Origin: Urbifossiella limnaea
GTDB lineage: Bacteria; Planctomycetota; Planctomycetia; Gemmatales; Gemmataceae
Assembly: GCF_007747215.1 (NCBI RefSeq)
Contig: NZ_CP036273.1
Span: 3,704,322 to 3,768,321, forward strand
Direction: 5' to 3'
DNA: 64,000 nt
Shown here: piece after piece, positions 2,783 through 63,566 of the stretch
Layout: each line of letters begins with the position of its first letter
How positions within the stretch are numbered: the stretch's first letter is position 1
Made by a program: the position numbers and the translations under genes
The notes under the pieces: model-generated
Databases searched by the model: none
Told to the model about the DNA's origin: nothing
What the model saw: only the letters and a program-made list of their open reading frames with translations

Positions 2783-5700
2783 ATGGACACCCAGGCCATC
2801 GTCATCCGCGGGGCGCGGGAGCACAACCTCCGAAACGTCGATCTCGAACTGCCGCGCGACAAGCTCATCGTCTTTACCGGCGTCAGCGGTTCGGGCAAAT
2901 CCTCCCTCGCATTCGACACCATCTACGCGGAGGGCCAGCGGCGATACGTTGAAAGCCTGTCCAGCTACGCCCGCCAGTTCCTCGGCCAACTCCCCAAGCC
3001 GGACGTGGACTACATCGGCGGCCTGTCCCCCGCCGTCAGCATCCAGCAGAAGACCGCCAGCCGCAACCCCCGCAGTACCGTCGGCACCGTTACCGAGGTG
3101 TCGGACTATCTGCGGGTGCTGTTCGCGCGGCTGGGACAGGGCCACTGCCCGACCTGCGAGCGGCCGATCACGGCCCAGACCCGCGAGCAGATCATCGGCC
3201 GCGTCCTGGCGCTGCCCGAAGGGACGCGGTTCATGATCTTGGCGCCGGTGGTCCGTGGCCAGAAGGGGGAGTTCAAGGACTTTTTCGCCGACATGTCGAA
3301 GCGCGGCTACGTGCGCGCCCGGGTGGACGGCCGCGTCGTCAAACTGACCGACGACCTGAAGCTCGACAAGCGCATCAAGCACGCCATCGAGATCGTCATC
3401 GACCGGCTGAAGATCGAGGCCAAGGGGGCGACGAACCGCGTCCGCATCGCCGAGGCCGTGGAGCAGGCGCTGGCGCTGGCCGAGGGCAACCTCGTCATCA
3501 GCGTGGAGGGCGACCGTCCGACTGACGCCGAAGGTGAAACGGCCGCCGAGGAGATTCTCCTCTCCGCCCACTACGCCTGCACCCACTGTGGGATCAGCTA
3601 CGAGCCCCCGACGCCGCAGCTGTTCAGCTTCAACAGCCCGATGGGGATGTGTACCGAGTGCGACGGCCTCGGGACGAAGTTCACCTTCGACCCCGACCTG
3701 ATCGTCCCCGACCCGTCGCTCAGCTTCTACGCCGGGGCCGTGCCGCTGGTCGGCTCGCTGAAGGGGATGGGCCGCTGGCGGAAGCACGTTTACGAGGGCG
3801 TGGCCAAGTCGCTCGACATCGAGCTTAAGACGCCGTGGGGCAAGCTCCCCGCCGAGCACCGCGACCAGCTCCTGAACGGCAGCGGCGACCGGCACATCGT
3901 CTGGGAGTGGAAGCAGCGCAACGGCACCGTGTGGAAGCACGGCGGCAAGTGGGACGGCGTCGTGCCGCAGTTGCTGTCGCAATTCAAGAAGGCCGCCCCC
4001 GGGCCGCAGCGGATGCGGCTCGAAAAGTACATGCGGCAGGTGCGCTGCCCCGCGTGCTACGGCCAGCGGCTGAACCCGCAGGCCCGCGCCGTGCGCGTCG
4101 GCGGCAAGACACTCGTCGAACTCGGACACTCGCCCATCGGCGAACTGGTGCCGTGGTTCGACGGCTACGAGGCGAAGCTCACCGACGTGGCCCGCACGAT
4201 CGCCGGCGAGTTGCTGAAGGAGATTCGCGCCCGCCTCGGCTTCCTGCTGAACGTCGGCCTCCACTACCTGACGCTCGACCGCTCCGCGCCGACGCTTTCC
4301 GGCGGCGAGGCGCAGCGCATCCGCCTCGCCGGCCAGATCGGCAGCGGCCTCGTCGGCGTGTTGTACGTCCTCGACGAGCCGAGCATCGGCCTCCACCCGC
4401 GCGACAACGCCCGGCTGCTGGCGAGCCTCGAACGGCTGCGCGACATGGGAAACACCGTCCTGGTCGTCGAGCACGACGAAGACACGATGCGCGCCGCCGA
4501 CTTCCTCGTGGACTTCGGCCCCGGACCGGGCGTGCGCGGCGGCCACGTCGTGGCCGCCGGCACCCCGGCCGAGGTGTTCGCCAACCCGGCCAGCCTGACC
4601 GGTCAGTTCCTCAACGGAACGAAGGAAATCGCCATCCCCGCGGAGCGCCGGAAGGTCGATCAGAAGCGGCAGATCAAGGTGATCGGCGCGACGCAGAACA
4701 ACCTCAAGAACGTGACCGTGGACATCCCGGTCGGCGTGCTCACGGTCGTGACCGGGGTCAGCGGCTCGGGAAAGTCGTCGCTCATCAACGACATCCTGAA
4801 GGAGGCTCTCACGGCCGCCGGCCGCCCTGCCGCGGCCGGCGAGGACGACGAGCCGGACGAGACCGACCACACCGTCGGCGCGCACGAGCGGATCGAGGGC
4901 GCCGAGCACATCGACAAGGTCATCGACATCGACCAGACGCCGATCGGCCGCACGCCGCGGTCGAACCCGGCGACGTACATCAAGCTGTGGGACGAGGTGC
5001 GGTCGCTGTACGCCGACATGACCGACGCCAAGACCCGCGGCTACACGCCGAGCCGGTTCAGCTTCAACCGCCCCGGCGGCCGCTGCGAGGCGTGCGAGGG
5101 GAACGGCGCCACCAAGCTGGAAATGGACTTCCTGGCCGACGTGTGGGTGACGTGCCCGGTGTGCGAGGGGCGGCGGTTCAACCGCGAGACGCTCCAGGTG
5201 AAGTACCGCGGCCGCTCCATCCACGACACGCTCGAAATGGAGGTCGGCCAGGCACTCGACCACTTCGAGCACGTCCCCAAAGTGCGGACGATGCTGCAAA
5301 CGCTGCACGACGTGGGGCTCGACTACGTCAAGCTCGGGCAGCCCTCCCCGACTTTGTCGGGCGGCGAGGCGCAGCGGATCAAGCTGGCGAAGGAGTTGGT
5401 CCGCAAGGGGACCGGGAAGACGCTGTACATCCTGGACGAGCCGACGACCGGCCTCCATTTCGAGGATGTGCGCAAACTCCTCGATGTCCTCCACGGGTTC
5501 GCCGCGGCCGGGAACACGGTTCTGGTCATTGAGCACAACCTCGACGTCATCAAGACGGCCGACTGGCTCATCGACATGGGGCCGGAGGGCGGCAGCGGCG
5601 GCGGCCACGTCGTCGCCACCGGCACGCCGGAGCAGGTGGCAAAGGTGAAGGCCTCTCACACCGGCGCGGCGCTAAAGCCGATCCTGTTCCCGACAGGAGA

Positions 5701-8700
5701 CCGGAAACAGGAGACAGGAGCCAAGAAGAAGCAGCCGCGGAAGCCGACCGGCTACATCACCCACATTGAGGTGGAAGGCGCGTCCCAGCACAACCTGAAG
5801 CACGTGAACTGCAAGCTGCCGCGGGAGCAGATGACGGTGTTCTGCGGCCCCAGCGGCTCGGGTAAGTCGTCGCTCGCGCTCGATACCATCTACGCCGAGG
5901 GGCAGCGGCGCTACGTCGAGAGCCTGTCCAGCTACGCCCGCCAGTTCCTGGGGCAGGTTCAGAAGCCGAAGGTCGAACACGTCACGGGGCTGTCGCCGGC
6001 GATCAGCATCGAGCAGAAGACGACGAGCAAGAGCCCGCGCAGCACCGTCGGCACCATCACCGAGGTGTACGACTACCTCCGCATCCTCTACGCCCGCCTC
6101 GGCCAGCGGCACTGCCCGAGCTGCGGCGACGCCGTCGGCACGCAGACCGCCGACGAGATCGTGGACAAGGTGCTGTCGCTCCCGGAGGGAACGAAGCTGT
6201 ACATCCTGGCGCCGGTCGAGCGGAAGGGGCAGGAGAAGTACGACACGCTTTGGGAAGAGATTCGCCGCGCCGGGTACGTGCGAATGCGCGTGGACGGCAC
6301 CAGCTACAACCTCGACGAGCCGCCGGCGATCGACCACCGCCGCAAGCACCGCGTCGAGGTGGTGGTGGACCGCAACGTCGTGAAGCCCGGCACCCGCACC
6401 CGCGTGGCCGAGGCCGTGGAGCAGGCGCTGGAGTTGGGCCGCGGCGTGATGAACATCGCGTTCGTGGACGCGAACAAGCCGGAGCCGCAGTGGAAGGTGG
6501 ACCGCTACTCGCAGCACCTGGCCTGCGAGCGCTGCAACCTCAGCTTCGAGCCGCTGAACCCGCACCACTACTCGTTCAACAGCCCGCTCGGTTGGTGCCC
6601 GACGTGCGAGGGGCTGGGTGTCCAGCGCGGAGCGAACCCGGCGCTGCTGATCCGCGACGGGGCTCTGTCTATCCGCGACGGTGCCATCGCCGGCTGGCCC
6701 GACTTGGATGCCGGTTCTGCGTGGCTACCGTTCGCCGAGGCCATCGTCCGACACGCCGGCTTCGACCTCGACACGCCCTACGACAAGCTCGACGCGGCCC
6801 AACAGCGCGTCATCCTCCACGGCACCGGCGAAGCGTGGTTGGATTTGGCGAGCGGCCGGCGTGAGCCGGCAGGTCGGGGTGGCAGGACTTCACGCTCGAC
6901 GACCAGCCGGCTCACGCCGGCCGCTCGCCCGGCGCGGTTCCAGTACAAGGGCCTGTTCCCAGCCGTGGACGAGGCCAACCGCGTCTCGTTCGTCTACCGC
7001 CAGCGCCTCGACCAACTGGTCGACGAAGTCCCCTGCTCCACCTGCCGCGGCTCGCGCCTTCGCGCCGACGCCGCGGCCACCCGCTTCGCCGGCCTCACGC
7101 TCGGCGAACTCGGCGCCAAGCCCCTCGGGGATACACTCCGCCACGTCGCCGGACTCGACCTGTCGAAGCACGACACGCAGGTCGCCGGCGAAGTGCTCCG
7201 GGAGATCCGCAGCCGCCTCACGTTCCTCGTAGACGTGGGGCTCGACTACCTCGCGCTGTCGCGCCCCGGCCCGACGCTCTCCGGCGGCGAGGCCCAGCGC
7301 ATCCGGCTGGCGTCGCAGATCGGCAGCGGCCTGACCGGCGTGCTGTACGTCCTCGACGAGCCGACCATCGGGCTGCACCCGCGCGACAACGAGCGGCTGC
7401 TCGAAGCGCTGAAGCGGCTCCGGGACCTGGGGAACACGCTGGTACTGGTCGAGCACGACCGCGAGGTCATCGCCGCGGCCGACTACCTCCTCGACTTCGG
7501 CCCCGGCGCCGGCGACCGCGGCGGCGAGATCACCGCGGCCGGCCCGCCGAAGCAAGTCGGCAAGTCGCCCGCGTCGCTCACCGGCAAGTACCTCTCGGGC
7601 GCGCTGGCGATCCCGATTCCGTCGAACCGACGCATCCCCGGCGGCACCGCGCACACCCCCGCGGCGCTGGCCGAGGTCGCCCCGACGGCCGGTGTCCTCT
7701 CCATCATCGGCGCCCGCCAGAACAACCTCCGCAACGTCGACGCCCACCTGCCACTCGGGGCGTTCGTCGCCGTCACCGGCGTGAGCGGGTCGGGGAAGTC
7801 GTCGCTCGTGAACGAGGTGCTGTACAACACGCTCGCCCGCCGGCTCCACCGCGCCCGCACCGTCGCCGCCGCGCACGACGACATCCGCGGGCTCGACCAC
7901 GTGGACAAGATCATCAACGTCGATCAGGACCCCATCGGCAACTCGCCGTCGAGCAACCCGGCGACGTACACCGGCGTGTTCGACCTGGTGCGCGAGTTGT
8001 TCGCCCGGCTCCCCGAGTCGAAGGTCCGCGGCTACCACCCGCGGCGGTTCAGCTTCAACCAGAAGGGCGGCCGCTGCGAGGCGTGCGAGGGGAACGGGCA
8101 GAAGCGGATCGAGATGCACTTCCTGCCGGACGTGTGGGTCGAGTGCGACACCTGCAAGGGCACCCGGTACAACCCCGAGACGCTGGCCGTGAAGTACCAC
8201 GGCAAGAGCATCGCCGACGTGCTGAACCTGCGCGTGGCCGAGGCGCTGGAACTGTTCGGCAACATCCCCAAGATTCGCGTGGTGCTGCAAACGCTCGACG
8301 ACGTGGGCCTCGGCTACATGGCACTCGGCCAGCCGGCCCCGACGATGAGCGGCGGCGAGGCCCAGCGCGTGAAGCTCGCCGCGGAGCTGGCCCGCCCGAG
8401 CACCGGCAAGACACTCTACCTCCTCGACGAGCCGACGACCGGGCTCCACTTCGACGACATCCGCAAGCTGCTCGACGTGCTGCAACGCCTCGTAGATCTC
8501 GGCAACACTGTCGTCGTGGTCGAGCACAACCTGGACGTGGTGAAGTCGGCCGACTGGGTGCTGGACATGGGGCCGGACGGCGGCGTCGGCGGCGGCCGCG
8601 TCGTCGCCGCGGGGACGCCCGAGGACGTGGTCGGCGTCGAGGAGTCGCACACCGGCCGCATCCTGAAAGGTGTGCTGGGCGCCGGCCCTCGCGTCGAGCG

Positions 8701-9736
8701 CGTCCCGTTCGACCCCGATGCGGCGCGGCGACAACGCGCCGGCGACCTGGACATCACCGAGGTCGGCAAGGACCACGCCTTACCGTGGGAGGCCGACGGC
8801 CCGCGCTGGCACACCAAGGAGCGCGTGACGACGACCGGTAAGCCCGCGAAGTGGGACGGCGCCGCGCTGGCGTGGGTGATCGCCGAAGTTGAGAAGACCG
8901 GCGCGTTCGCGCCCCCGAACTGGAACCACCGCAGTATCGTCGAGGTGACCCCGCCGAAGAAGGCGGACGGCTGGTTCCTCCACGCGATGACCGGCCACGA
9001 GGCGTACCTGAAGCTCGTCTTCCGCGTCCCCGGGAAGCCGTTCAAGCAGGACCAACTCGCGGCCAGCCTCGGCCTCCGCCCGCTCTCGGACACGCCCGGC
9101 CTCGAAGGATTGTCCCGCGACGAGAACCGCGTGGAGGTCGGCACGTGGCCCGGGGCGCAGTACGCCGTCGTCATCGTCCACACGAAGGCCGAGATCGACA
9201 CGCCGGCCTTCCGCGAGTTCCTGGCGAAAGCCGTCGCCGCGTCCCAGGCCAGGACGCGGACCGCGGCGGACGGCGTCGAGGCGCAAATGCCGTGGAAGAA
9301 GGACGGCGAGAAGTGGCACCTGTCCGACAAGGGCTTCCCACCCGGCCGCGGGGCGCGTTGGGACCGCACCCTGCTGCCGAAGCTGCTCAAGCTCGTCCGC
9401 GACATCGAGCCGGACGCCGAGGTGAAGTGGGACAACCGCGACGCCGTCCTCGTCAAGGTGCCGGGGGCGACGCGGTCGTGGGCACGCTGGCGGACGAAGG
9501 ACGCCGACGCCCTCGACGTGCAGTTCGTCGGCCGCCGCGGGCAGTTCAACCTGAGCCGTATCGAGCAGTTCGGTCGCGGCGCGGAGTTGATCGACGACCG
9601 CGCCGGTGGGGCGACCGTGTTACACCTTCAGTTCGTGACCGCCGACCACTTCCACGCCCCGGCCCTGAAGCAACTCCTGACGGAGCACCTGGCCGGCTTC
9701 CGCGAGGCGCACGGGCGCGACAAGGAAGCCGGCTGA
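2783..9736 (+). CDS. uvrA: Giant tandem-duplicated excinuclease UvrA
   Basis: 2,317 residues, against about 940 for a standard UvrA. It is the damage-sensing ATPase of nucleotide excision repair. Two complete UvrA units are fused: residues about 1-965 and 985-1960. Walker A motifs lie near 33, 660, 1023 and 1667. Four LSGGEAQR/MSGGEAQR signatures lie near 502, 858, 1499 and 1854. CxxC zinc modules are present in both halves (CTHCGIS..CTEC, CEACEGNG..CPVC and equivalents). The linker KQETGAKKKQPRK joins the units. A C-terminal extension (about 1975-2317) contains two related segments. Residues about 1356-1383 are encoded by a palindromic repeat. The start at 2783 fits the conserved N-terminus (IVIRGAREHNL), with AGGAGGA about 13 nt upstream. 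Confidence 0.95.
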   Translation: MDTQAIVIRGAREHNLRNVDLELPRDKLIVFTGVSGSGKSSLAFDTIYAEGQRRYVESLSSYARQFLGQLPKPDVDYIGGLSPAVSIQQKTASRNPRSTVGTVTEVSDYLRVLFARLGQGHCPTCERPITAQTREQIIGRVLALPEGTRFMILAPVVRGQKGEFKDFFADMSKRGYVRARVDGRVVKLTDDLKLDKRIKHAIEIVIDRLKIEAKGATNRVRIAEAVEQALALAEGNLVISVEGDRPTDAEGETAAEEILLSAHYACTHCGISYEPPTPQLFSFNSPMGMCTECDGLGTKFTFDPDLIVPDPSLSFYAGAVPLVGSLKGMGRWRKHVYEGVAKSLDIELKTPWGKLPAEHRDQLLNGSGDRHIVWEWKQRNGTVWKHGGKWDGVVPQLLSQFKKAAPGPQRMRLEKYMRQVRCPACYGQRLNPQARAVRVGGKTLVELGHSPIGELVPWFDGYEAKLTDVARTIAGELLKEIRARLGFLLNVGLHYLTLDRSAPTLSGGEAQRIRLAGQIGSGLVGVLYVLDEPSIGLHPRDNARLLASLERLRDMGNTVLVVEHDEDTMRAADFLVDFGPGPGVRGGHVVAAGTPAEVFANPASLTGQFLNGTKEIAIPAERRKVDQKRQIKVIGATQNNLKNVTVDIPVGVLTVVTGVSGSGKSSLINDILKEALTAAGRPAAAGEDDEPDETDHTVGAHERIEGAEHIDKVIDIDQTPIGRTPRSNPATYIKLWDEVRSLYADMTDAKTRGYTPSRFSFNRPGGRCEACEGNGATKLEMDFLADVWVTCPVCEGRRFNRETLQVKYRGRSIHDTLEMEVGQALDHFEHVPKVRTMLQTLHDVGLDYVKLGQPSPTLSGGEAQRIKLAKELVRKGTGKTLYILDEPTTGLHFEDVRKLLDVLHGFAAAGNTVLVIEHNLDVIKTADWLIDMGPEGGSGGGHVVATGTPEQVAKVKASHTGAALKPILFPTGDRKQETGAKKKQPRKPTGYITHIEVEGASQHNLKHVNCKLPREQMTVFCGPSGSGKSSLALDTIYAEGQRRYVESLSSYARQFLGQVQKPKVEHVTGLSPAISIEQKTTSKSPRSTVGTITEVYDYLRILYARLGQRHCPSCGDAVGTQTADEIVDKVLSLPEGTKLYILAPVERKGQEKYDTLWEEIRRAGYVRMRVDGTSYNLDEPPAIDHRRKHRVEVVVDRNVVKPGTRTRVAEAVEQALELGRGVMNIAFVDANKPEPQWKVDRYSQHLACERCNLSFEPLNPHHYSFNSPLGWCPTCEGLGVQRGANPALLIRDGALSIRDGAIAGWPDLDAGSAWLPFAEAIVRHAGFDLDTPYDKLDAAQQRVILHGTGEAWLDLASGRREPAGRGGRTSRSTTSRLTPAARPARFQYKGLFPAVDEANRVSFVYRQRLDQLVDEVPCSTCRGSRLRADAAATRFAGLTLGELGAKPLGDTLRHVAGLDLSKHDTQVAGEVLREIRSRLTFLVDVGLDYLALSRPGPTLSGGEAQRIRLASQIGSGLTGVLYVLDEPTIGLHPRDNERLLEALKRLRDLGNTLVLVEHDREVIAAADYLLDFGPGAGDRGGEITAAGPPKQVGKSPASLTGKYLSGALAIPIPSNRRIPGGTAHTPAALAEVAPTAGVLSIIGARQNNLRNVDAHLPLGAFVAVTGVSGSGKSSLVNEVLYNTLARRLHRARTVAAAHDDIRGLDHVDKIINVDQDPIGNSPSSNPATYTGVFDLVRELFARLPESKVRGYHPRRFSFNQKGGRCEACEGNGQKRIEMHFLPDVWVECDTCKGTRYNPETLAVKYHGKSIADVLNLRVAEALELFGNIPKIRVVLQTLDDVGLGYMALGQPAPTMSGGEAQRVKLAAELARPSTGKTLYLLDEPTTGLHFDDIRKLLDVLQRLVDLGNTVVVVEHNLDVVKSADWVLDMGPDGGVGGGRVVAAGTPEDVVGVEESHTGRILKGVLGAGPRVERVPFDPDAARRQRAGDLDITEVGKDHALPWEADGPRWHTKERVTTTGKPAKWDGAALAWVIAEVEKTGAFAPPNWNHRSIVEVTPPKKADGWFLHAMTGHEAYLKLVFRVPGKPFKQDQLAASLGLRPLSDTPGLEGLSRDENRVEVGTWPGAQYAVVIVHTKAEIDTPAFREFLAKAVAASQARTRTAADGVEAQMPWKKDGEKWHLSDKGFPPGRGARWDRTLLPKLLKLVRDIEPDAEVKWDNRDAVLVKVPGATRSWARWRTKDADALDVQFVGRRGQFNLSRIEQFGRGAELIDDRAGGATVLHLQFVTADHFHAPALKQLLTEHLAGFREAHGRDKEAG
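6847..6929. repeat. Palindromic repeat inserted in frame in uvrA
   Basis: 24-bp perfect inverted arms at 6847-6870 and 6906-6929; the match continues to about 30 bp with one mismatch. The arm core is GAGCGGCCGGCGTGAGCCGG. It encodes LASGRREPAGRGG... in a place where the first UvrA unit has nothing similar. Related arms occur at 54563-54586 (leuS) and 62003-62078. Confidence 0.85.
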
Positions 9737-33907: not shown

Positions 33908-33936
33908 CGGTTGACCACCGGGGCTCGGAAAGGATG

Positions 33937-34027
33937 GGGGTGCCCTGAGCCGCACCCTCCAGCACTTATGGCTGCTGCTTCCGCCCTGACCAGGTTCATA
34001 CCTTCAGGTCGGTCAGGCCCCCACCCC
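33937..34027 (-). ncRNA. ffs: Signal recognition particle RNA, bacterial small type
   Basis: On the minus strand the segment contains the near-invariant SRP domain IV: CTGGTCAGGGCGGAAGCAGC followed by AGCCATAA, carrying the GGAA tetraloop-like element and the asymmetric loop bound by Ffh. The ends pair: the 5' strand GGGGTGGGGGCCTGA with the 3' strand TCAGGGCACCCC. That gives a single hairpin of about 91 nt, the small bacterial type without an Alu domain. Exact ends are uncertain by a few bases. It lies 29 nt downstream of the prkA stop and could be processed from that transcript or have its own promoter, which I could not see. Confidence 0.9.
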
Positions 34028-52815: not shown

Positions 52816-55413
52816 TCAGACCACGACGACGTTGACCAGCTTCCGCGGCACCACCTTCACCAGCTTCACGGTCTTGCCGGCGATCGCGGCCTGAACCGCG
52901 GCGTCGCCGCGGGCCGCGGCTTCCAGGTCGGCGTCCGACACCTCGGCGGGCACCTTGAGCCGGGCCTTCAGCTTGCCGTTCACCTGCACCGGCACCTCGA
53001 TCTCGTCCGCCTTCGTCAGCGCCGGGTCGAACGCCGGCCACGGCTCGTAGGCCAGCGTCGGGCCGCGGCCGAGCGCCCGCCACAGCTCCTCGGCCGCGTG
53101 CGGGGCGTAGGGGGCGAGCAGCAGCACGAACGGCTCCAGCACCGCCCGCGGCCGCGCTTCCAGCTTGTTGACGTGGTTGACGAACTCCATCATCGCCGCG
53201 ATCGCCGTGTTGAAGCGAAGACCGTCGGTGTCCTCGGTGACCTTCTGGATGGTACGGTGGAGCACCCGCAGCGTGTCCTTGTCCGGCTCAACTTCCTTCA
53301 CCGCCGCGTGCAGCTTCAGCTCCTCGGCGGTGTCGTCCACGATCAACCGCCACGCCCGCGTCAGGAAGCGGTACACGCCCTCGATCGACTTCGTGTTCCA
53401 GGGCTTTACCGCCTCCAGCGGCCCCATGAACATCTCGTACAGCCGCAGGCTGTCGGCCCCGTACTCCTGCACCACGTCGTCGGGGTTGATGACGTTCCCG
53501 CGGGCCTTCGACATCTTCTCGCCGTTTTCGCCGAGGATCATGCCCTGGTTCACGAGCCGCTGGAACGGCTCGGCGCACGGCACGTAGCCGCGGTCGAACA
53601 GCACCTTGTGCCAGAACCGGCTGTACAGCAGGTGGAGCACCGCGTGCTCGGCCCCGCCGACGTACAGGTCCACCGGCAGCCAGTACTTCAGCTTCTCCGG
53701 GTCGGCCAGCACCTCGGTGTTCTGCGGGTCGATGTAGCGGAGGAAGTACCAGCACGAGCCGGCCCACTGCGGCATCGTGTTCGTCTCGCGCCGGTAGGCC
53801 ACGCCGTCGCGCGTGACGTTCACCCAGTCCGTCGCCTTCGACAGCGGCCCCTCGGGCGTGCCGGTCGGCTTGAAGTCGGCGAGGTCGGGCGGGATCAGCG
53901 GCAGCTCGGTCGTCGGAAGCGGCACCAGCTCGCCGTGCGGGCCGTGCAGCACCGGGAACGGCTCGCCCCAGTAGCGCTGCCGGCTGAACAGCCAGTCGCG
54001 CAGCTTGTAGTTCACGCGCCGGCTGCCGAGCCCGCGCTCCTCCAGCCAGGCGGTGATCTTGGACTTCGCGGCCGCGGTGTCGAGCCCGTCCAGCGGGCCG
54101 GAGTTCACCGCCACGCCGTCGTCGGTGTATGCCTCGGTCAGGCGAGCCATCGTGCTCCCGGTTCGCTTCAGCCACTCGGCGGTCGGCGTCACCACGGTCA
54201 CGACCGGCAGGTCGAACAGCTGCGCGAACTCGAAGTCGCGCTCGTCGTGGCCGGGGACGGCCATGATGGCCCCGGTGCCGTAGCCGGACAGCACGTAGTC
54301 GGCGATCCAGATCGGGACGCGCTCGCCGTTCACCGGGTTTACGGCGTAGGCGCCGGTGAACACGCCGGTCTTCGTCTTGGCCAGCTCGGTGCGCTCGAAG
54401 TCGCTCTTGCGGGCGGCGGCGTCCTGGTACGCCTTCACGGCGGCGGCCTGTTCGGGGGTCGTGATCCGCGGCACCAGCGCGTGCTCGGGCGACAGCACCA
54501 TGTACGTGGCGCCGAACAGCGTGTCGGGCCGCGTGGTGAACACGGTGATCGGTTCGGAAACGGCGGGCTCACGCCCGCCGCTCGCCAGTGCGAAGTGAAC
54601 CTCCGCCCCCTCGCTCTTGCCGATCCAGTTCCGCTGCATCTGCTTGATCGACTCCGACCAGTCGAGGCCGGCCAGGTCGTCGATCAGGCGCTCGGCGTAG
54701 GCGGTGATCCGCATCAGCCACTGGCGCAGCGGCCGACGCTCGACCGGGTGGCCGCCGCGCTCGCTCTTGCCGTCGATCACCTCCTCGTTCGCCAGCACGG
54801 TGCCGAGCGCCGGGCACCAGTTCACCGGCACCTCGGCCTGGTACGCCAGCCGGCGGTCGTCGCGATACTGGCGAACGGCGGCGTCGCCGCGCGCGGCGAC
54901 ATCGGGGGGAATGGGTAGCTCCGCGATCGGGCGGCCCTTCCCCGCCGCGGCGTCGTACCAGGTGTCGTACAGGACCAGGAAGATCCACTGGGTCCAGCGG
55001 AAGTACGTGGGGTCGGTGGTGTCGACCTCGCGGTCCCAGTCGTAGGAGAAGCCGAGCGACTGAATCTGCCGGCGGAACGTGGCGATGTTCTGCTGGGTCG
55101 TGATGCGCGGGTGGACGTTCTTCTCGACCGCGTACTGCTCGGCCGGCAGGCCGTAGGCGTCCCAGCCCATCGGGTGGAGGACGTGGAAGCCGCGCATCCG
55201 CTTGAAGCGGGCGAGGATGTCGGTGGCCGTGTACCCTTCCGGGTGGCCGACGTGGAGGCCGGCGCCGCTCGGGTACGGGAACATATCCAGGACGTAGAAC
55301 TTGGGCCGGCCGGCGGCGGCCGGGTCGCCGGGGTCGGGCGTGCGAAAGGTCTTGTTCGCCAGCCAGTACTGCTGCCACCGGCGCTCGACGTCGGCGGGGT
55401 TGTAGCTCGGCAT
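52816..55413 (-). CDS. leuS: Leucyl-tRNA synthetase
   Basis: 865 residues. The HIGH-like motif is HVGHPEG (near residue 50), KMSKS is KMSKARGN (about 632), and the CP1 editing domain includes TTRPDTLFG (near 290) and [22 protein letters not shown]. The start [17 protein letters not shown] at 55413 fits the family; the longer frame adds unrelated residues. Residues about 277-284 (SGGREPAV) come from a genomic palindromic repeat. A TTGACA lies about 65 bp upstream, but no matching -10 was found. Confidence 0.96.
54563..54586. repeat. Single repeat arm within leuS
   Basis: 24-bp segment; on the minus strand its core is GAGCGGCGGGCGTGAGCCCG, differing in 2 positions from the uvrA repeat arm and read in the same frame (ASGGREPA against ASGRREPA). 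Lies in the CP1 editing domain. Confidence 0.7.
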
Positions 55414-55532
55414 CAGCCTCGGCCTCGGTGGGGGTGCGGAATCTGGCTTACGGCAGAGGAATAACGTGTCAACGCCCCGCGAAGTGATGTCCGACGCTTG
55501 AGCCGGGTTCACGGTCGGCGCCGGGCGGGAGA

Positions 55533-55585
55533 CGAAAACGACGGCGGCCGGCGACCCGATGGGTCGCCGGCCGCCGTCGTTTTCG
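55533..55585. terminator. Perfect 25-bp-arm hairpin
   Basis: Arms 55533-55557 and 55561-55585 with a 3-nt loop (GAT). It lies downstream of the lipoprotein gene on the minus strand (stop 55593). The arms end in AAAACG / CGTTTT, giving a U-run on the minus strand. Confidence 0.8.
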
Positions 55586-59460: not shown

Positions 59461-59545
59461 GACTTAGGGGCCGTGGGACACAGGGACGGCGGGACAAGAT
59501 CTCGAATCTTGTCCCGCCGTCCCTGTGTCCCACGGCCCCTAAGTC
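59461..59545. repeat. 85-bp perfect palindrome before rpsR
   Basis: Perfect 40-bp arms (59461-59500 and 59506-59545) with a 5-nt loop (CTCGA). It begins 5 bp after the TerB-like gene stop and ends 74 bp before the rpsR start. It lacks a T-run and looks unlike the GC hairpins that end other genes here. Confidence 0.9.
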
Positions 59546-59942: not shown

Positions 59943-62018
59943 GTGAGTGCGCACGTCGACGCCGCCTTCACCGAGGCCGTCCGCCTCCACCAGGCCGGCG
60001 ACCTCGCCGCCGCCGAGCCCGGCTACCGGCGCGTCCTCGACATGAACCCGGCCCACCCGGGGGCGCTCGTCAACCTCGGCGTGCTCGCGGCGAAGCGCGG
60101 CGACCTGGTGACGGCCACGCAGCTGTACCAGGACGCCATCGCCGTCAACCCCGGCCAGCTCGACGCCCACTTCAACCTCGGCAACCTCCTCCGCAAGCTC
60201 GGCAAGCCGCACGACGCCGCCGCCGCGTACCAGCACGCCGTCCGCATCGACCCCAACCACCCGCGGGCGTTCCTGAACCTCGGCCTCGCCGTGTCCGACG
60301 CCGGCGACTGGCCCACGGCCGTGGACTGCTTCCGGCGTGCCGTGGCGATCGACCCCGGCCTCGCCGACGCCTACAACCTGCTCGGCGACGCCCTGTACCG
60401 TCTCGGCCGGCCGGCGGAGGCCGTCGGCGTGTTCCGCGAGTACGTCGCCCGCTGCCCCGACGACCCGCGCGGCCACCACAACCTCGGCCTCGCGCTCGCC
60501 GGGAGCGGTACCTACGAGGACGCCGTCCCGGAGCTGGAGCTCGCCGTCAGGCTGCGGCCCGACTACGCCGACGCCTGCAACTCGCTGGGCGTCGCGCTCG
60601 AGGCCCTGGGCCGCGCCGACGAGGCGCAGGAGCAGTACCGCCGGGCCATCGAGCTGCGCGAGACTTTCGCCGACGCCTGGAGCAACCTCGGCACCAGCCT
60701 CACCGAACAGGGCCGCGTTCCGGAAGCCCTCGACGCGCTGAACAAGGCGCTGTCCCTCCGCGCCGACGCCCGCACCGACAGCAACCGACTCCTCGCCCTC
60801 TGCTACAGCTCGGGCCACGACGCGAACGACCTGTTCCACGCCCACGCCGACTGGACCGGCCGGTACGCCGACGCGCTGCTCGGCCCGCCGCCGCGGGTAG
60901 TGGACGCGTCGCCCGAGCGGCGGCTGAAGGTCGGCTACGTCTCGGCCGACTTCCGCCAGCACACCGTCGCCGCGTTCATCGAGACGCTGTTCACGCACCA
61001 CGACCGCAACCGCGTCCACGTCACCGGCTACGCGAACGTCACGCGCGCCGACGACACCACGGACCGCCTCCGCCGCCTCGCCGACGGCTGGCGGCCGATC
61101 ACGCACCTCCCCGACGCCCAGGTCGCCGACCTGATCGCGGCCGACGAGATCGACGTCCTCGTGGACCTCAGCGGCCACACCGCCGGGAACCGCCTCCTGG
61201 TCTTCGCCCGCAAGCCGGCGCCGGTTCAGATCACTCTCTTCGGTTACCCCGCGACCACGGGCCTCAAGGCGATCGACTACAAGGTGTCGGACCCGGTCGC
61301 CGACCCGCCGAGCGAGTCCGGCGAACAGTACGCCGAGCGCGTGCTGCGGCTGCCGGAGGTGGCCTGGGCGTATCGCCCGCCGGCGAACGCCCCGGAGCCG
61401 AACGCCCTGCCGGGGCTGTCCGGCCGGTCGTTCACGTTCGGCTGCCTGAACAACCCGGCGAAACTGTCGGAGGCCTGCGTTGCGGCGTGGTCGCGCGTCC
61501 TGAAGGCGGTGCCGAAGTCGCGGCTGGTGTTGCTCGCCGGCCGCTCCTCGGCGGCGGCCCGCGGCATCGCCGACCGCTTCACCCTGCACGGCATCGTGTC
61601 CGACCGGCTGGAGATCGTGTACCGGCTGCCCGCGGCCGAGTACCTGGAGGCGTACCAGCCCATCGACCTGGCCCTCGACCCCTTCCCGTACAACGGCGGC
61701 GTCACGACGTGCGACGCCCTGTGGATGGGCGTGCCGGTGCTCACCGTGGCCGGCACCGACTACCGGAGTCGGCAGGGGGCGAGCATCCTGACGAACCTGG
61801 GCCTGCCCGAGTTCGTGGCCGACTCGTCGGACAAGCTGGTGGAACTGGCCGCGAGCTGGGCCGACCAGCGGGCCGCCCTCGCGGACCTGCGCGGCTCGCT
61901 GCGCGAGATGATGACGGCCAGCCCGCTGACCGACGCGCCGCGGTACGTGCGGCACCTGGAGGCGGCGTACCGAGAGGCCTGGGCGAACACGATCGGCGCA
62001 GGCGAGCGGCCCGCGTGA
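59943..62018 (+). CDS. TPR protein with O-GlcNAc transferase-like (GT41) domain
   Basis: 691 residues from the GTG at 59943. Residues about 5-280 are seven or more TPRs (EAVRLHQAGDLAAAEPGYRRVLDMNPAHPGALVNLG and relatives). The C-terminal half is the GT41/SPINDLY domain: LKVGYVSADFRQHTVAAFIETLF near 328, DVLVDLSGHTAGNRLLVFARKPAPVQITLFGYPATTGLKAIDY, and FGCLNNPAKLSEACVAAWSRVLKAVPKSRLVLL. Likely adds a sugar, perhaps GlcNAc, to Ser/Thr of target proteins. The stop codon lies within a long palindrome. Confidence 0.9.
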   Translation: MSAHVDAAFTEAVRLHQAGDLAAAEPGYRRVLDMNPAHPGALVNLGVLAAKRGDLVTATQLYQDAIAVNPGQLDAHFNLGNLLRKLGKPHDAAAAYQHAVRIDPNHPRAFLNLGLAVSDAGDWPTAVDCFRRAVAIDPGLADAYNLLGDALYRLGRPAEAVGVFREYVARCPDDPRGHHNLGLALAGSGTYEDAVPELELAVRLRPDYADACNSLGVALEALGRADEAQEQYRRAIELRETFADAWSNLGTSLTEQGRVPEALDALNKALSLRADARTDSNRLLALCYSSGHDANDLFHAHADWTGRYADALLGPPPRVVDASPERRLKVGYVSADFRQHTVAAFIETLFTHHDRNRVHVTGYANVTRADDTTDRLRRLADGWRPITHLPDAQVADLIAADEIDVLVDLSGHTAGNRLLVFARKPAPVQITLFGYPATTGLKAIDYKVSDPVADPPSESGEQYAERVLRLPEVAWAYRPPANAPEPNALPGLSGRSFTFGCLNNPAKLSEACVAAWSRVLKAVPKSRLVLLAGRSSAAARGIADRFTLHGIVSDRLEIVYRLPAAEYLEAYQPIDLALDPFPYNGGVTTCDALWMGVPVLTVAGTDYRSRQGASILTNLGLPEFVADSSDKLVELAASWADQRAALADLRGSLREMMTASPLTDAPRYVRHLEAAYREAWANTIGAGERPA

Positions 62019-62078
62019 GCGGGCTGGTCCGCGGCGGAACGAGGCGCCGCGGACCAGCCCGCTCACGCGGGCCGCTCG
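62003..62078. repeat. 34-bp-arm palindrome overlapping a stop codon
   Basis: Arms 62003-62036 and 62045-62078 are perfect complements with an 8-nt loop. The first arm begins CGAGCGGCCCGCGTGAGCGG, the same family as the uvrA and leuS repeats. It contains the TGA (62016-62018) of the transferase gene. It also lies 16 bp from the convergent response-regulator stop (62094), so it probably terminates both transcripts. Confidence 0.85.
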
Positions 62079-62093
62079 ACATTTCGGTGACCT

Positions 62094-63566
62094 TCACCCC
62101 GCCCGCTGCTGCCGCTCTTCCTCGTACTTGTGCAGCTTGTTGTACAGCGTCTTGAGGCTGATCCCCAACTCGGCGGCGGTCGCCTGCTTGTTCGAGTTGT
62201 TCTTCGCGTACACCTGCAGGATGTACTCCATCTCGATGTCCGCGAGCGTCTTGCCGCTGCTGCTCGGCACGTGAGCCGGGTGCGGGTGGTACCCCGTGCT
62301 CACGGCCGTGGGGAACGGCACCGCGGCCGGCGCCTCGTAGGCCGCCGGGCGCGCCGGCGTTCGCGGCGTGCGGTTCGCCAGCGGCAGGTGCGTCGGCGTG
62401 ATCGGCTGCCCGCCGGACATGATCCAGGCGTACTCCATCGCGTTCGCCAGCTCGCGGACGTTCCCCTGCCAGTAGTCGTCCATCAGCACGCCGAGCACGT
62501 CGTGGCCGAGCAGGTGGGCCACCGCCTCGACGGGCCGCTTGGCCGCCCGCGCCAGCAGGTGCCGGGCGAGGTCGGGGATGTCCGGCTTGCGGTCGCGCAG
62601 CGGCGGCAGGTGGATGTGGAACATGTTCAGCCGGAACAGCAAGTCCTCGCGGAACGTGCCCTCGGCCACCATCTGCCGCAGGTCGCGGTTCGTGGCCGAG
62701 ATCACCCGCACGTCGGCGATGATCGGCTCGTTCGACCCCACCGGCCGGATCTCGCCCGCCTCCAGGAAGCGGAGCAGCTTCACCTGGATGTTCTTGTCCA
62801 GCTCGCCGAGTTCGTCGAGGAACAGCGTGCCGCCGTTGGCGACCTCGAACAGCCCCTTGCGGTCCTTCTCCGCGCCGCTGAACGAGCCGCGCTTGTGGCC
62901 GAACAGCTCGCTCTCGGCCAGCGTCTGCGTCAGCGCGCCGCAGTTCACCGGCACGAACGGCATGTCCGCCCGCTGGCTCTGCGTGTAGATCGCCCGCGCC
63001 ACCACTTCCTTGCCGGTGCCCGTCTCGCCGGTGATGAGGACGCGCCCCTCGGTCGGCCCGATCCGCTCGACGAACTGCCGCACCGGCAGCATCGCCGGGC
63101 TGGTGCCGATGAGGCCGCCCGGCCCCTCGGCGGCCTGCACCCGCGTCTCGAGCGCGGCCGCCTTGTGCTTCAGCTTCCGCTTCTCCTGGATGCGGAGGAG
63201 CAGCGCCTCGATGTCGGCCAGCTTGCACGGCTTGGTCAGGTAGTCGAACGCCCCGAGCCGCAGCGCCTCGACGGCGGTTTCGGTGCTGCCGTAGCCGGTC
63301 ATGATGACGGCTTCGGTGTCCGGCGACGCCTGCTTGAGCGCGGCCAGGACGGTGAGCCCGGCCTTGTCGTGCTCCATCCGCATGTCGAGGATGGCGGCGT
63401 CGAACGTGGCCTTCTTGATGACCTCGAGCGCCGTCTTGCTGTCCGGGCAGACGGTGACCTCGTGGCCGAGCCGTGGCAGCTCGGTCTTCATGAACTCCCG
63501 CAGGTGCTGCTCGTCGTCGACGAACAGCAGCCGGAGCCGGTGGTGTGCGGGAGTCGGGATCGCCAC
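62094..63566 (-). CDS. Sigma-54-dependent response regulator (NtrC family)
   Basis: 490 residues. GTG start at 63566, chosen because AGGAG (63574-63578) lies 7 nt upstream. REC domain at about 11-125 with Asp61; AAA domain at about 150-390 with GETGTGKE at 180-187, the sigma-54 contact loop GSFSGA at 227-232 (usual GAFTGA) and LFLDELGEL. A Fis-type HTH ends the protein (about 445-485, KQATAAELGISLKTLYNKLHKYEEE). Activates sigma-54 promoters when phosphorylated. A histidine kinase gene is adjacent upstream on the same strand. Confidence 0.95.
   Translation of the reverse strand: MAIPTPAHHRLRLLFVDDEQHLREFMKTELPRLGHEVTVCPDSKTALEVIKKATFDAAILDMRMEHDKAGLTVLAALKQASPDTEAVIMTGYGSTETAVEALRLGAFDYLTKPCKLADIEALLLRIQEKRKLKHKAAALETRVQAAEGPGGLIGTSPAMLPVRQFVERIGPTEGRVLITGETGTGKEVVARAIYTQSQRADMPFVPVNCGALTQTLAESELFGHKRGSFSGAEKDRKGLFEVANGGTLFLDELGELDKNIQVKLLRFLEAGEIRPVGSNEPIIADVRVISATNRDLRQMVAEGTFREDLLFRLNMFHIHLPPLRDRKPDIPDLARHLLARAAKRPVEAVAHLLGHDVLGVLMDDYWQGNVRELANAMEYAWIMSGGQPITPTHLPLANRTPRTPARPAAYEAPAAVPFPTAVSTGYHPHPAHVPSSSGKTLADIEMEYILQVYAKNNSNKQATAAELGISLKTLYNKLHKYEEERQQRAG

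Follow-up and report, generated by a model that had tools for sequence, protein, structure and literature searches.

GGCGARC-tagged REPINs of Urbifossiella limnaea and recurrent palindromes in a loop of UvrA

Palindromic repeats inside bacterial genes

REPINs are made of two inverted repetitive extragenic palindromic (REP) sequences with a spacer between them. They are present in many copies, mostly extragenic, and a gene for a tyrosine transposase, the REP-associated tyrosine transposase (RAYT), is found beside REPs (Bertels and Rainey, 2011; PMC3116915). These features are shared by the element reported here, which lies inside uvrA at positions 6847-6929 of a 64,000-nucleotide stretch (the window) of Urbifossiella limnaea (NZ_CP036273.1, positions 3,704,322 to 3,768,321). 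The window is part of a single-contig genome of 7,795,793 bp (7.8 Mb; Gemmataceae, Planctomycetota), referred to as G000. The element differs from the published system in its tag, which is GGCGA(G/A)C (GGCGARC) and not GTAG, in its planctomycete host, and in that 13 of the 70 copies classified lie well inside genes, all in one frame.

Intragenic REPs, among them some in uvrA, have been in print since 2013, and the kind of element is therefore already known. In a survey of that year, GTAG and CGTC REPs inside genes are reported in uvrA of Thioalkalivibrio and O. terrae and in tRNA synthetase genes (Di Nocera et al., 2013; PMC3733652). REP dimers or groups within genes encode 20-30 residues, REP ends provide stop codons, copies lie near 3' ends, and REP families are reported from Planctomycetes as well. 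The family described here shares the in-gene copies (again including uvrA and a tRNA synthetase gene), the REP-supplied stops and the location at 3' ends. However, its tag and family are different, and here one site recurs over many genomes and repeat families. In the survey the sites differed within a functional category, with the exception of recB of two Xanthomonas, where about one site was used (PMC3733652). Rickettsia palindromic elements (RPEs) are similar in that they are in-frame palindromic repeats in unrelated genes and are translated (PMC10969869; PMC3733652). Those first reported measure about 150 bp (PMC10969869), whereas the present element is typically 81 bp, RAYT-linked and mostly intergenic.

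The closest described transposases are the class 3 TnpA-Y1 proteins, which are placed principally in Planctomycetes, Acidobacteria, and Proteobacteria, with flanking atypical hairpins that are sometimes abundant (Quentin et al., 2018; PMC6006769). Compared by motif, the proteins found here have the NH.H and W[TA] motifs and the Y....Q signature of this class. The Y motif is close but not identical, YVLxQ here and YV[VI][AENY]EQ as published, and the foot is GGCGARC in place of CnGA. In the same text, coding insertions in transposase genes are described for subclass 2.4 and not for class 3 (PMC6006769).

A literature search, which left aside supplementary files and most subscription journals, returned no GGCGARC REP family, no fixed coding frame, and no recurrent palindromes in one UvrA loop. 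These three features, the last being the repeated use of one loop by unrelated palindromes, are new here. The explanation that we favor, and hold to be probable, is that the element is a non-autonomous REPIN moved in trans by RAYTs that act on GGCGA(G/A)C REPs, that its copies are filtered after insertion, and that tolerant loops are hit repeatedly.

The repeat family of U. limnaea

The uvrA gene (2783-9736, plus strand; longest open reading frame from 2705) is of double length, with two fused UvrA units, and carries the REPIN in unit 2. A first-pass annotation, made from the sequence of the window, had described an inverted repeat there, and the repeat was recovered as two 30-nt arms, 97% complementary and 23 nt apart. 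The left arm (6847-6876, plus strand) consists of an outer G, the tag GCGAGCG and the hairpin GCCGGC-GTGA-GCCGGC, and the right arm (6900-6929, minus strand) is its inverted copy; the doublet as a whole is without strand. It is read in frame as ASGRREPAGRGGRTSRSTTSRLTPAARP, including ASGRREPA, and belongs to a subfamily whose stems are GCCGGC and whose spacer resembles GGTCGGGGTGGCAGG. Folded as single-stranded DNA, the element reaches -47.6 kcal/mol (z -10.3 against shuffles). Each arm is also a hairpin by itself; the uvrA arm has a z of -3.1, and 3 of 200 shuffles fold equally well. In another frame the uvrA spacer contains WQDFTLDD. An origin of this stretch in native UvrA was considered, but it was taken as coincidence, because the spacer resembles the subfamily spacers of other copies (GGTCGGGGTTGCAGG among them).

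Two relatives in the window, at the places that had been proposed, belong to the same family. A single arm (54563-54586, minus strand) lies in leuS (52816-55413, minus strand; longest open reading frame starting at 55512), with the compensated stem GCGGGC/GCCCGC. It is read as ASGGREPA, in the same frame as in uvrA, as the first-pass annotation had stated. Its hairpin has the shape of the uvrA arm, but 15 of 200 shuffles fold as well. The second relative is a REPIN between convergent genes (62002-62079, no strand), which overlaps the end of the upstream gene and contains a palindrome at 62003-62078 with perfect 34-nt arms (z -13.9 when folded as single-stranded DNA). The upstream TPR / Glyco_transf_41 gene (59943-62018, plus strand) takes its stop TGA (62016-62018) from the TGA of the REP, and the convergent gene (62094-63566, minus strand) ends at 62094, 14 nt beyond the REPIN. 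Matches to the arm at up to 3 mismatches were not above chance in the window overall (15 against a mean of 10.4), and only perfect arms and the 2-mismatch leuS arm were accepted as family members there.

Genome-wide counts agreed with the proposal of a common REP- or MITE-like (miniature inverted-repeat transposable element) repeat. The strict two-arm pattern gave 45 doublets, and the pattern read backwards gave none. The arm is not rare: at up to 2 mismatches, 82+82 arms were counted in the genome, compared with 22+9 for the reversed pattern. Further statistics were taken from stretches fetched around listed arm sites, which together make up 717 kb (GC content 71%) and form a sample biased towards sites with arms. 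This sample held 134 arm matches with up to 4 mismatches, of which 86 were perfect, and 126 arms with up to 3 mismatches were used for arm statistics. The unit is a REPIN (family A) of two inverted 23-nt REP hairpins, GCGAGCGGCC(C/G)GCGT(G/C)AGC(G/C)GGC, each behind an outer G, from which the arm consensus runs on as GCGAGCGGCC(C/G)GCGT(G/C)AGC(G/C)GGCTGTT (126 arms). The edge of the arm is sharp, with the outer G found in 117 of 126 arms although it was absent from the search pattern. One stem position left free on both sides by the pattern was C-G in 89 arms, G-C in 31 and unpaired in 6; the pattern left little freedom at the remaining stem positions, which are thus little informative. Most of the 126 arms have the foot GGCGARC and not the GTAG or CGTC tag of the known REP superfamily. 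The pattern used to find them contained GCGAGCGG, and an earlier pattern without GCG recovered the same family. Among 95 Gemmataceae genomes (one per species), an arm with at most 1 mismatch was present in 35, spread over 12 of 39 genera, with 1 to 319 arms per genome; the reversed pattern had a single match in each of 4.

Seventy elements were classified (the genome holds at least 70), namely 55 doublets and 15 single arms; doublets dominate, as in REPINs. With outer bases the doublet measured 81 nt, or 27 codons, in 31 of 54 cases. Genes were called with a three-periodic Markov model trained on long open reading frames (coding density 90%), an uncurated annotation of our own, and host proteins were identified by Pfam or NCBIfam. 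Forty elements fall between genes, another 16 run across the end or start of a gene, and the remaining 14 lie within genes. The first-pass annotation had suggested possible spread as an in-frame coding insertion, which is supported by the 13 elements that lie in frame well inside genes; 56 of the 70 are found between genes or at gene ends, and coding copies are a minority. For 38 of the 40 intergenic elements a gene 3' end is no more than 25 nt away. Counting by gene, 73 3' ends and 11 starts are within this distance of an element. For 14 gene 3' ends, the TGA of the GTGA loop of the REP is the exact stop codon. Divergent gene pairs hold none of the 56 elements outside genes, compared with 93 such pairs among 550 neighboring pairs (p 3e-5).

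Well inside genes, 13 of the 14 in-gene copies (8 doublets and 5 single arms) all use one frame. Forward arms in genes are read as ASGxR(E/Q)xA, and reverse single arms as QPAxAxRSP, which is also the right-arm reading of an 81-nt copy. In uvrA it is only the right arm that departs from this pattern, being in a different frame from the right arms of the 81-nt coding copies. When the 54 doublets were read in both directions (n=108), the open readings numbered 78 for frame 0, 98 for frame 1 and 13 for frame 2. Since frame 0, the one used well inside genes, is less often open than frame 1, stop codons alone are insufficient to account for the fixed frame. The peptide of frame 0 is the most hydrophilic (mean hydropathy -1.18, against -0.23 and -0.57 for the others). 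Measured against the open rates, the bias has a p of 1e-5 for 13 of 13 copies, 9e-5 for 13 of 14, and 8e-4 for the 8 doublets alone.

Besides UvrA and LeuS, the host proteins include DcuC, two PMT-type glycosyltransferases, a Ser/Thr protein kinase, a pyruvate dehydrogenase E2-type acyltransferase, a squalene-hopene cyclase-like, a chalcone synthase-like and a YdiJ-like oxidase protein, a histidine kinase, a PSCyt2/PSD1 protein and RNase R. A different sort of palindrome, also in frame, was seen in a 551-aa gene at G000:C1:5678696 (L088), where GGTGAAGGGGTGAAGGGG units are read GEGVKGRRGEG...SLTPSPLHPFTPSP.

RAYT-like genes and orthologous loops

Transposase genes with the PF01797 domain were found in 16 of 18 tested genomes (E up to 1e-5). 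When 52 Y1 loci (one place being counted twice) were scanned for GGCGARC REPs, 6 had any such REP and 4 were flanked on both sides. These four RAYT-like genes lie in the U. limnaea genome (L032, REPINs GGCGAGCCGGGAGCGTGAGCGACCGG), in G033 (L289, GGCGAACGGCCGGC...), in G005 (L323, GGCGAGCGGGGGGCGTGAGCCCCC) and in G053 (L335, where the flanks include an exact family-A REP). The flanking REP of L323 is the left arm found in RNase R of G005 and differs at two positions from the UvrA copy of that genome. At L031 (G000) and L290 (G081) the REP is farther off and on one side. The four flanked proteins have 190-195 residues, PF01797 matches, and NH.H and YVLxQ-like motifs (YVLFKQ in the RAYT of U. limnaea), and all lie on one side of a branch with a Shimodaira-Hasegawa-like approximate likelihood ratio support (SH-aLRT) of 96. 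For five proteins, these four among them (37-46 bits), the best NCBIfam match was NF047646, the REP-associated tyrosine transposase (E 4e-12 to 3e-7). The first-pass annotation had named a RAYT in the genome as support for a mobile origin. Genes of this type flanked by same-tag REPs are indeed present in U. limnaea and three relatives, but the flank in U. limnaea is a sister REP. The REP superfamily is thus RAYT-linked by gene neighborhood, and in U. limnaea the link holds at the level of the tag only.

Other transposase loci were noted during this search. The RAYT gene of L289 (1289-2110) has its stop codon inside a REP, with the protein ending GERPA, and tandem REP arrays on both sides. A second RAYT-like gene of U. 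limnaea (G000:C1:986405-986863; L033 1429-1887, minus strand) has another REPIN family on both sides, TTAGGCCGGGGCGC / TTAGGCCGGGGCGCAAGCCCCG, and 24 arms of the TTAGGCCGGGGCGCAAGCCCCG type occur in the 717-kb sample. The Y1 gene at G000:C1:118405-118851 (L031 1405-1851, minus strand), with a REPIN about 850 bp away, was tried as the cognate RAYT and dropped, because it is of the IS200/IS605 type (NF033573), has other palindromes beside it, and the REPIN is inside the neighboring dcuC. The palindrome GCAGGCTGAAGGCCTGC lies beside this gene.

Four host proteins, UvrA, RNase R, PSCyt2/PSD1 and LeuS, were followed in relatives because U. limnaea has a REP in each; flanking uvrA windows were the only control. 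UvrA was matched in 81 of the 95 Gemmataceae genomes, DNA was taken from 70, and the linker (GTGExW to FQYK) was parsed in 64, those of G034, G065, G077, G078, G079, and G081 being unparsed. Linker lengths fall into two ranges, 9-21 and 26-40 residues. A strong palindrome (score at least 14) was found in 24 of 64 linkers, compared with 0 of 511 windows of flanking uvrA DNA. All 24 were among the 47 linkers of at least 24 residues, and none among the 17 shorter ones. The linker of G035 was cut wrongly by the script and has a palindrome according to a separate examination, which would give 25 of 64. By eye, the palindromes are of several kinds. GGCGARC-tagged REPINs with several stems were seen in G000, G003, G005, G025, G035, G038, and G042, with weaker ones in G044 and G047; GGAACCC- or GGAATTC-like units in G004, G020, G023, G026, G058, and G059; and other palindromes in G018, G024, G033, G036, G048, G050, G051, G052, G067, and G071. 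In a UvrA tree built without the linker, sister species differ, with a REPIN in G003 and GGAACCC in G004, a REPIN in G000 and none in G002, and a REPIN in G035 and another palindrome in G036. All 9 forward GGCGARC arms in UvrA linkers (nine genomes, not all independent) are in phase 0, as in LeuS of U. limnaea, and the 6 reverse arms detected are spread over all three frames.

Measured by UvrA identity, the closest relative is G002 (88%). Its linker of 27 residues is non-palindromic and of other sequence, and does not consist of the same residues in other codons; with the arm also common in the genome, neither of the two observations that the first-pass annotation had named as refuting a mobile repeat was made. 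The linker of U. limnaea has 33 residues. The first-pass annotation had put the addition at about 28 residues, which holds for the element itself but not as a net gain over G002, where the difference is 6 residues only. Only the short-linker genomes (from 9 residues) point to a gain, which these sequences suggest to be of about 20 residues. In a modest AlphaFold2 model of UvrA unit 2 (15-row alignment; mean predicted local distance difference test score, pLDDT, 69.5; predicted template modeling score 0.37), the insert is predicted as coil between two short strands, with pLDDT below 50 at residues 368-391 and in other stretches also. This placement would be as expected of a disordered loop.

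RNase R was matched in 40 of 41 searched genomes and 30 loci were aligned. Strong palindromes were found in 5 of 30 loops, all in the genus of U. limnaea (5 of 6 genomes there). REPINs with different stems begin at the same codon in G000 and G005 and one codon earlier in G004, and G002 and G003 have palindromes other than those REPINs. PSCyt2/PSD1 was compared in six genomes. Inspection by eye showed a decayed REPIN in G002, at the codon used in U. limnaea, and a REPIN with unequal arms in G004; the REPINs of G003 and G004 lie further along the loop, 6 and about 10 codons downstream, and no palindrome was seen in this loop in G001 and G005. For LeuS, 86 of 95 genomes were matched, 70 were taken and 60 loops parsed. 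Three of these 60 have strong palindromes, of other families (G051, G067, and G071), and in G021 and G028 the same GGCGAGC tag with another hairpin was seen by eye at the site used in U. limnaea. LeuS is the weakest case of recurrence, with only a single arm in U. limnaea.

Three further features of the window were recorded. A 40-bp perfect inverted repeat with a 5-nt loop lies between genes at 59461-59545, and a 25-bp perfect inverted repeat lies directly upstream of leuS at 55533-55585; the first 24 bases of each have no further copy in the 717-kb sample. A bacterial small signal recognition particle RNA (Rfam RF00169) is found at 33930-34025 on the minus strand.

Explanations of the in-gene copies

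In the explanation that we favor, a RAYT of a Gemmataceae group, an HUH enzyme with a single tyrosine, would recognize REP hairpins by their GGCGARC foot. It would move the doublet via single-stranded DNA, by analogy with IS200/IS605 and TnpA-REP (PMC6006769; PMC3116915). Insertion would probably be broad and followed by strong filtering, and three kinds of survivors would be expected. The first would be copies just downstream of stop codons. The second would be copies at gene 3' ends, where one REP reading frame brings its own TGA. The third would be in-gene copies with the arm in a hydrophilic, stop-free frame (ASGxREPA-like) in a disordered surface loop, of which the tip between two strands in UvrA unit 2 may be an example. 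Selection on the peptide would then be the cause of the fixed frame, and the individual events would be gains. In related species, some tolerant loops would be hit again, both by other REPINs and by palindromes of unrelated sequence. That a few loops recur may reflect tolerance, a preference for the site, or the replacement of hairpins already present.

Several observations weigh against this explanation. The uvrA copy is 83 nt with its outer bases, which is no multiple of three, and doublets at mid-gene positions more often have a length of 3n (7 of 8, against 26 of 46), but this excess does not reach significance (p 0.10). The fourteenth in-gene copy uses frame 1; it lies in an EamA gene, 14 nt ahead of the stop codon and near the C-terminus. 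Regarding the transposases, all five NF047646 scores (30-46 bits) are below the cut-off of 80. The same-tag RAYT of U. limnaea is flanked by the sister REP (GGCGAGCCGGGAGCGTGAGC...), of which the 717-kb sample has 6 arms, 4 of them these flanks, and family A is the flank of none of the three Y1 matches in this genome. G002 has 319 arms yet one weak Y1 match, in an assembly that is 84% complete, and the RAYTs L276, L338, and L339, on the same side of the tree, have no such REP by the pattern used. In the relatives, no RNase R palindrome occurs outside the genus (0 of 24 rows) and G001 within it lacks one, and by score only 2 of 6 PSCyt2/PSD1 loops (G000 and G003) have a strong palindrome. The alignments of RNase R and PSCyt2/PSD1, in which loop length varies among relatives, gave no target rule, target duplication, exact junction or clean empty site. 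Relatives have other linkers of similar length, and both loops seem shortened where the REPIN sits. Our confidence was lowered slightly, to the level stated above, because the recurrence in RNase R is genus-confined and that in PSCyt2/PSD1 was partly judged by eye.

One alternative is that each loop of UvrA, RNase R and PSCyt2/PSD1 received one old insertion, whose stems were later overwritten via gene conversion or RAYT-mediated replacement. The shared start codon of the RNase R REPINs in G000 and G005 despite different stems, with G004 one codon away, would fit this history, as would the PSCyt2/PSD1 REPINs of U. limnaea and G002, which share a position and differ in subfamily. In UvrA, too, REPINs and unrelated palindromes of several genera begin 3 codons after the same Trp (by eye). 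However, the UvrA REPINs of G025, G035, G042, and G038 begin 4, 5, 6, and 8 codons after it, and the PSCyt2/PSD1 REPINs of G003 and G004 are displaced downstream as given above. Moreover, UvrA of G001 and G002 is without a palindrome, and unrelated palindromes have no visible homology for conversion. On balance we regard a single old insertion per loop as tentative and somewhat improbable.

It was also considered that the frame reflects the target and not selection on the peptide. Insertion would then take place beside a pre-existing GGCGAAC or GGCGAGC that is natively read xxG GCG ARC. At the LeuS site, G026 has GGCGAACGGC (LANG) and no hairpin, where U. limnaea, G021, and G028 have GGCGAGCGG and, after it, two different hairpins (by eye), but this LANG could be the relic of a lost REP. 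The PSCyt2/PSD1 loop of G001 contains GGCGAAC, and relatives of the IS200/IS605 type are described as inserting beside a short guide-read target (PMC6006769). Apart from the outer G, however, the 126 arms have no strong common sequence outside the arm edge, and the UvrA linker of G002 lacks the tag. A target-driven frame is judged somewhat unlikely.

A selected nucleic-acid structure, in which a DNA or mRNA hairpin serves the gene, for example in pausing or RNA processing, would agree with strongly folding stems, with palindromes of unrelated sequence in the UvrA loop of many genomes, and with those in the RNase R loop of 5 of the 6 genomes that represent the genus. It is very improbable, given that 39 of 64 UvrA genes (G035 counted as having one) and 25 of 30 RNase R rows have no strong palindrome, that the REPIN family of U. 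limnaea is mostly intergenic, and that the same repeat occurs in unrelated proteins. Chance or base composition, for which the 71% GC and the background of single-arm matches at 2-3 mismatches might speak, is refuted by the controls (45 doublets against 0 reversed, 161 palindromes scoring at least 16 against 1 in a codon- and base-shuffled copy, and the 0 of 511 uvrA windows).

Coding palindromes were known from Rickettsia and from scattered bacteria. Here they can be counted against a transposase group, in a fixed frame and in orthologous loops, over dozens of genomes. It thus becomes testable whether in-frame palindromes are merely tolerated or some loops are preferred landing sites, and for UvrA and RNase R the relatives offer a series of linkers replaced in nature. 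A bolder and doubtful idea is that the loops of UvrA unit 2, RNase R, PSCyt2/PSD1 and LeuS are true docking sites where, after a hairpin has settled, RAYTs and other hairpin-handling enzymes exchange it in frame for new palindromes. If this were true, the linker of a conserved repair protein would be rewritten by successive selfish elements, species by species.

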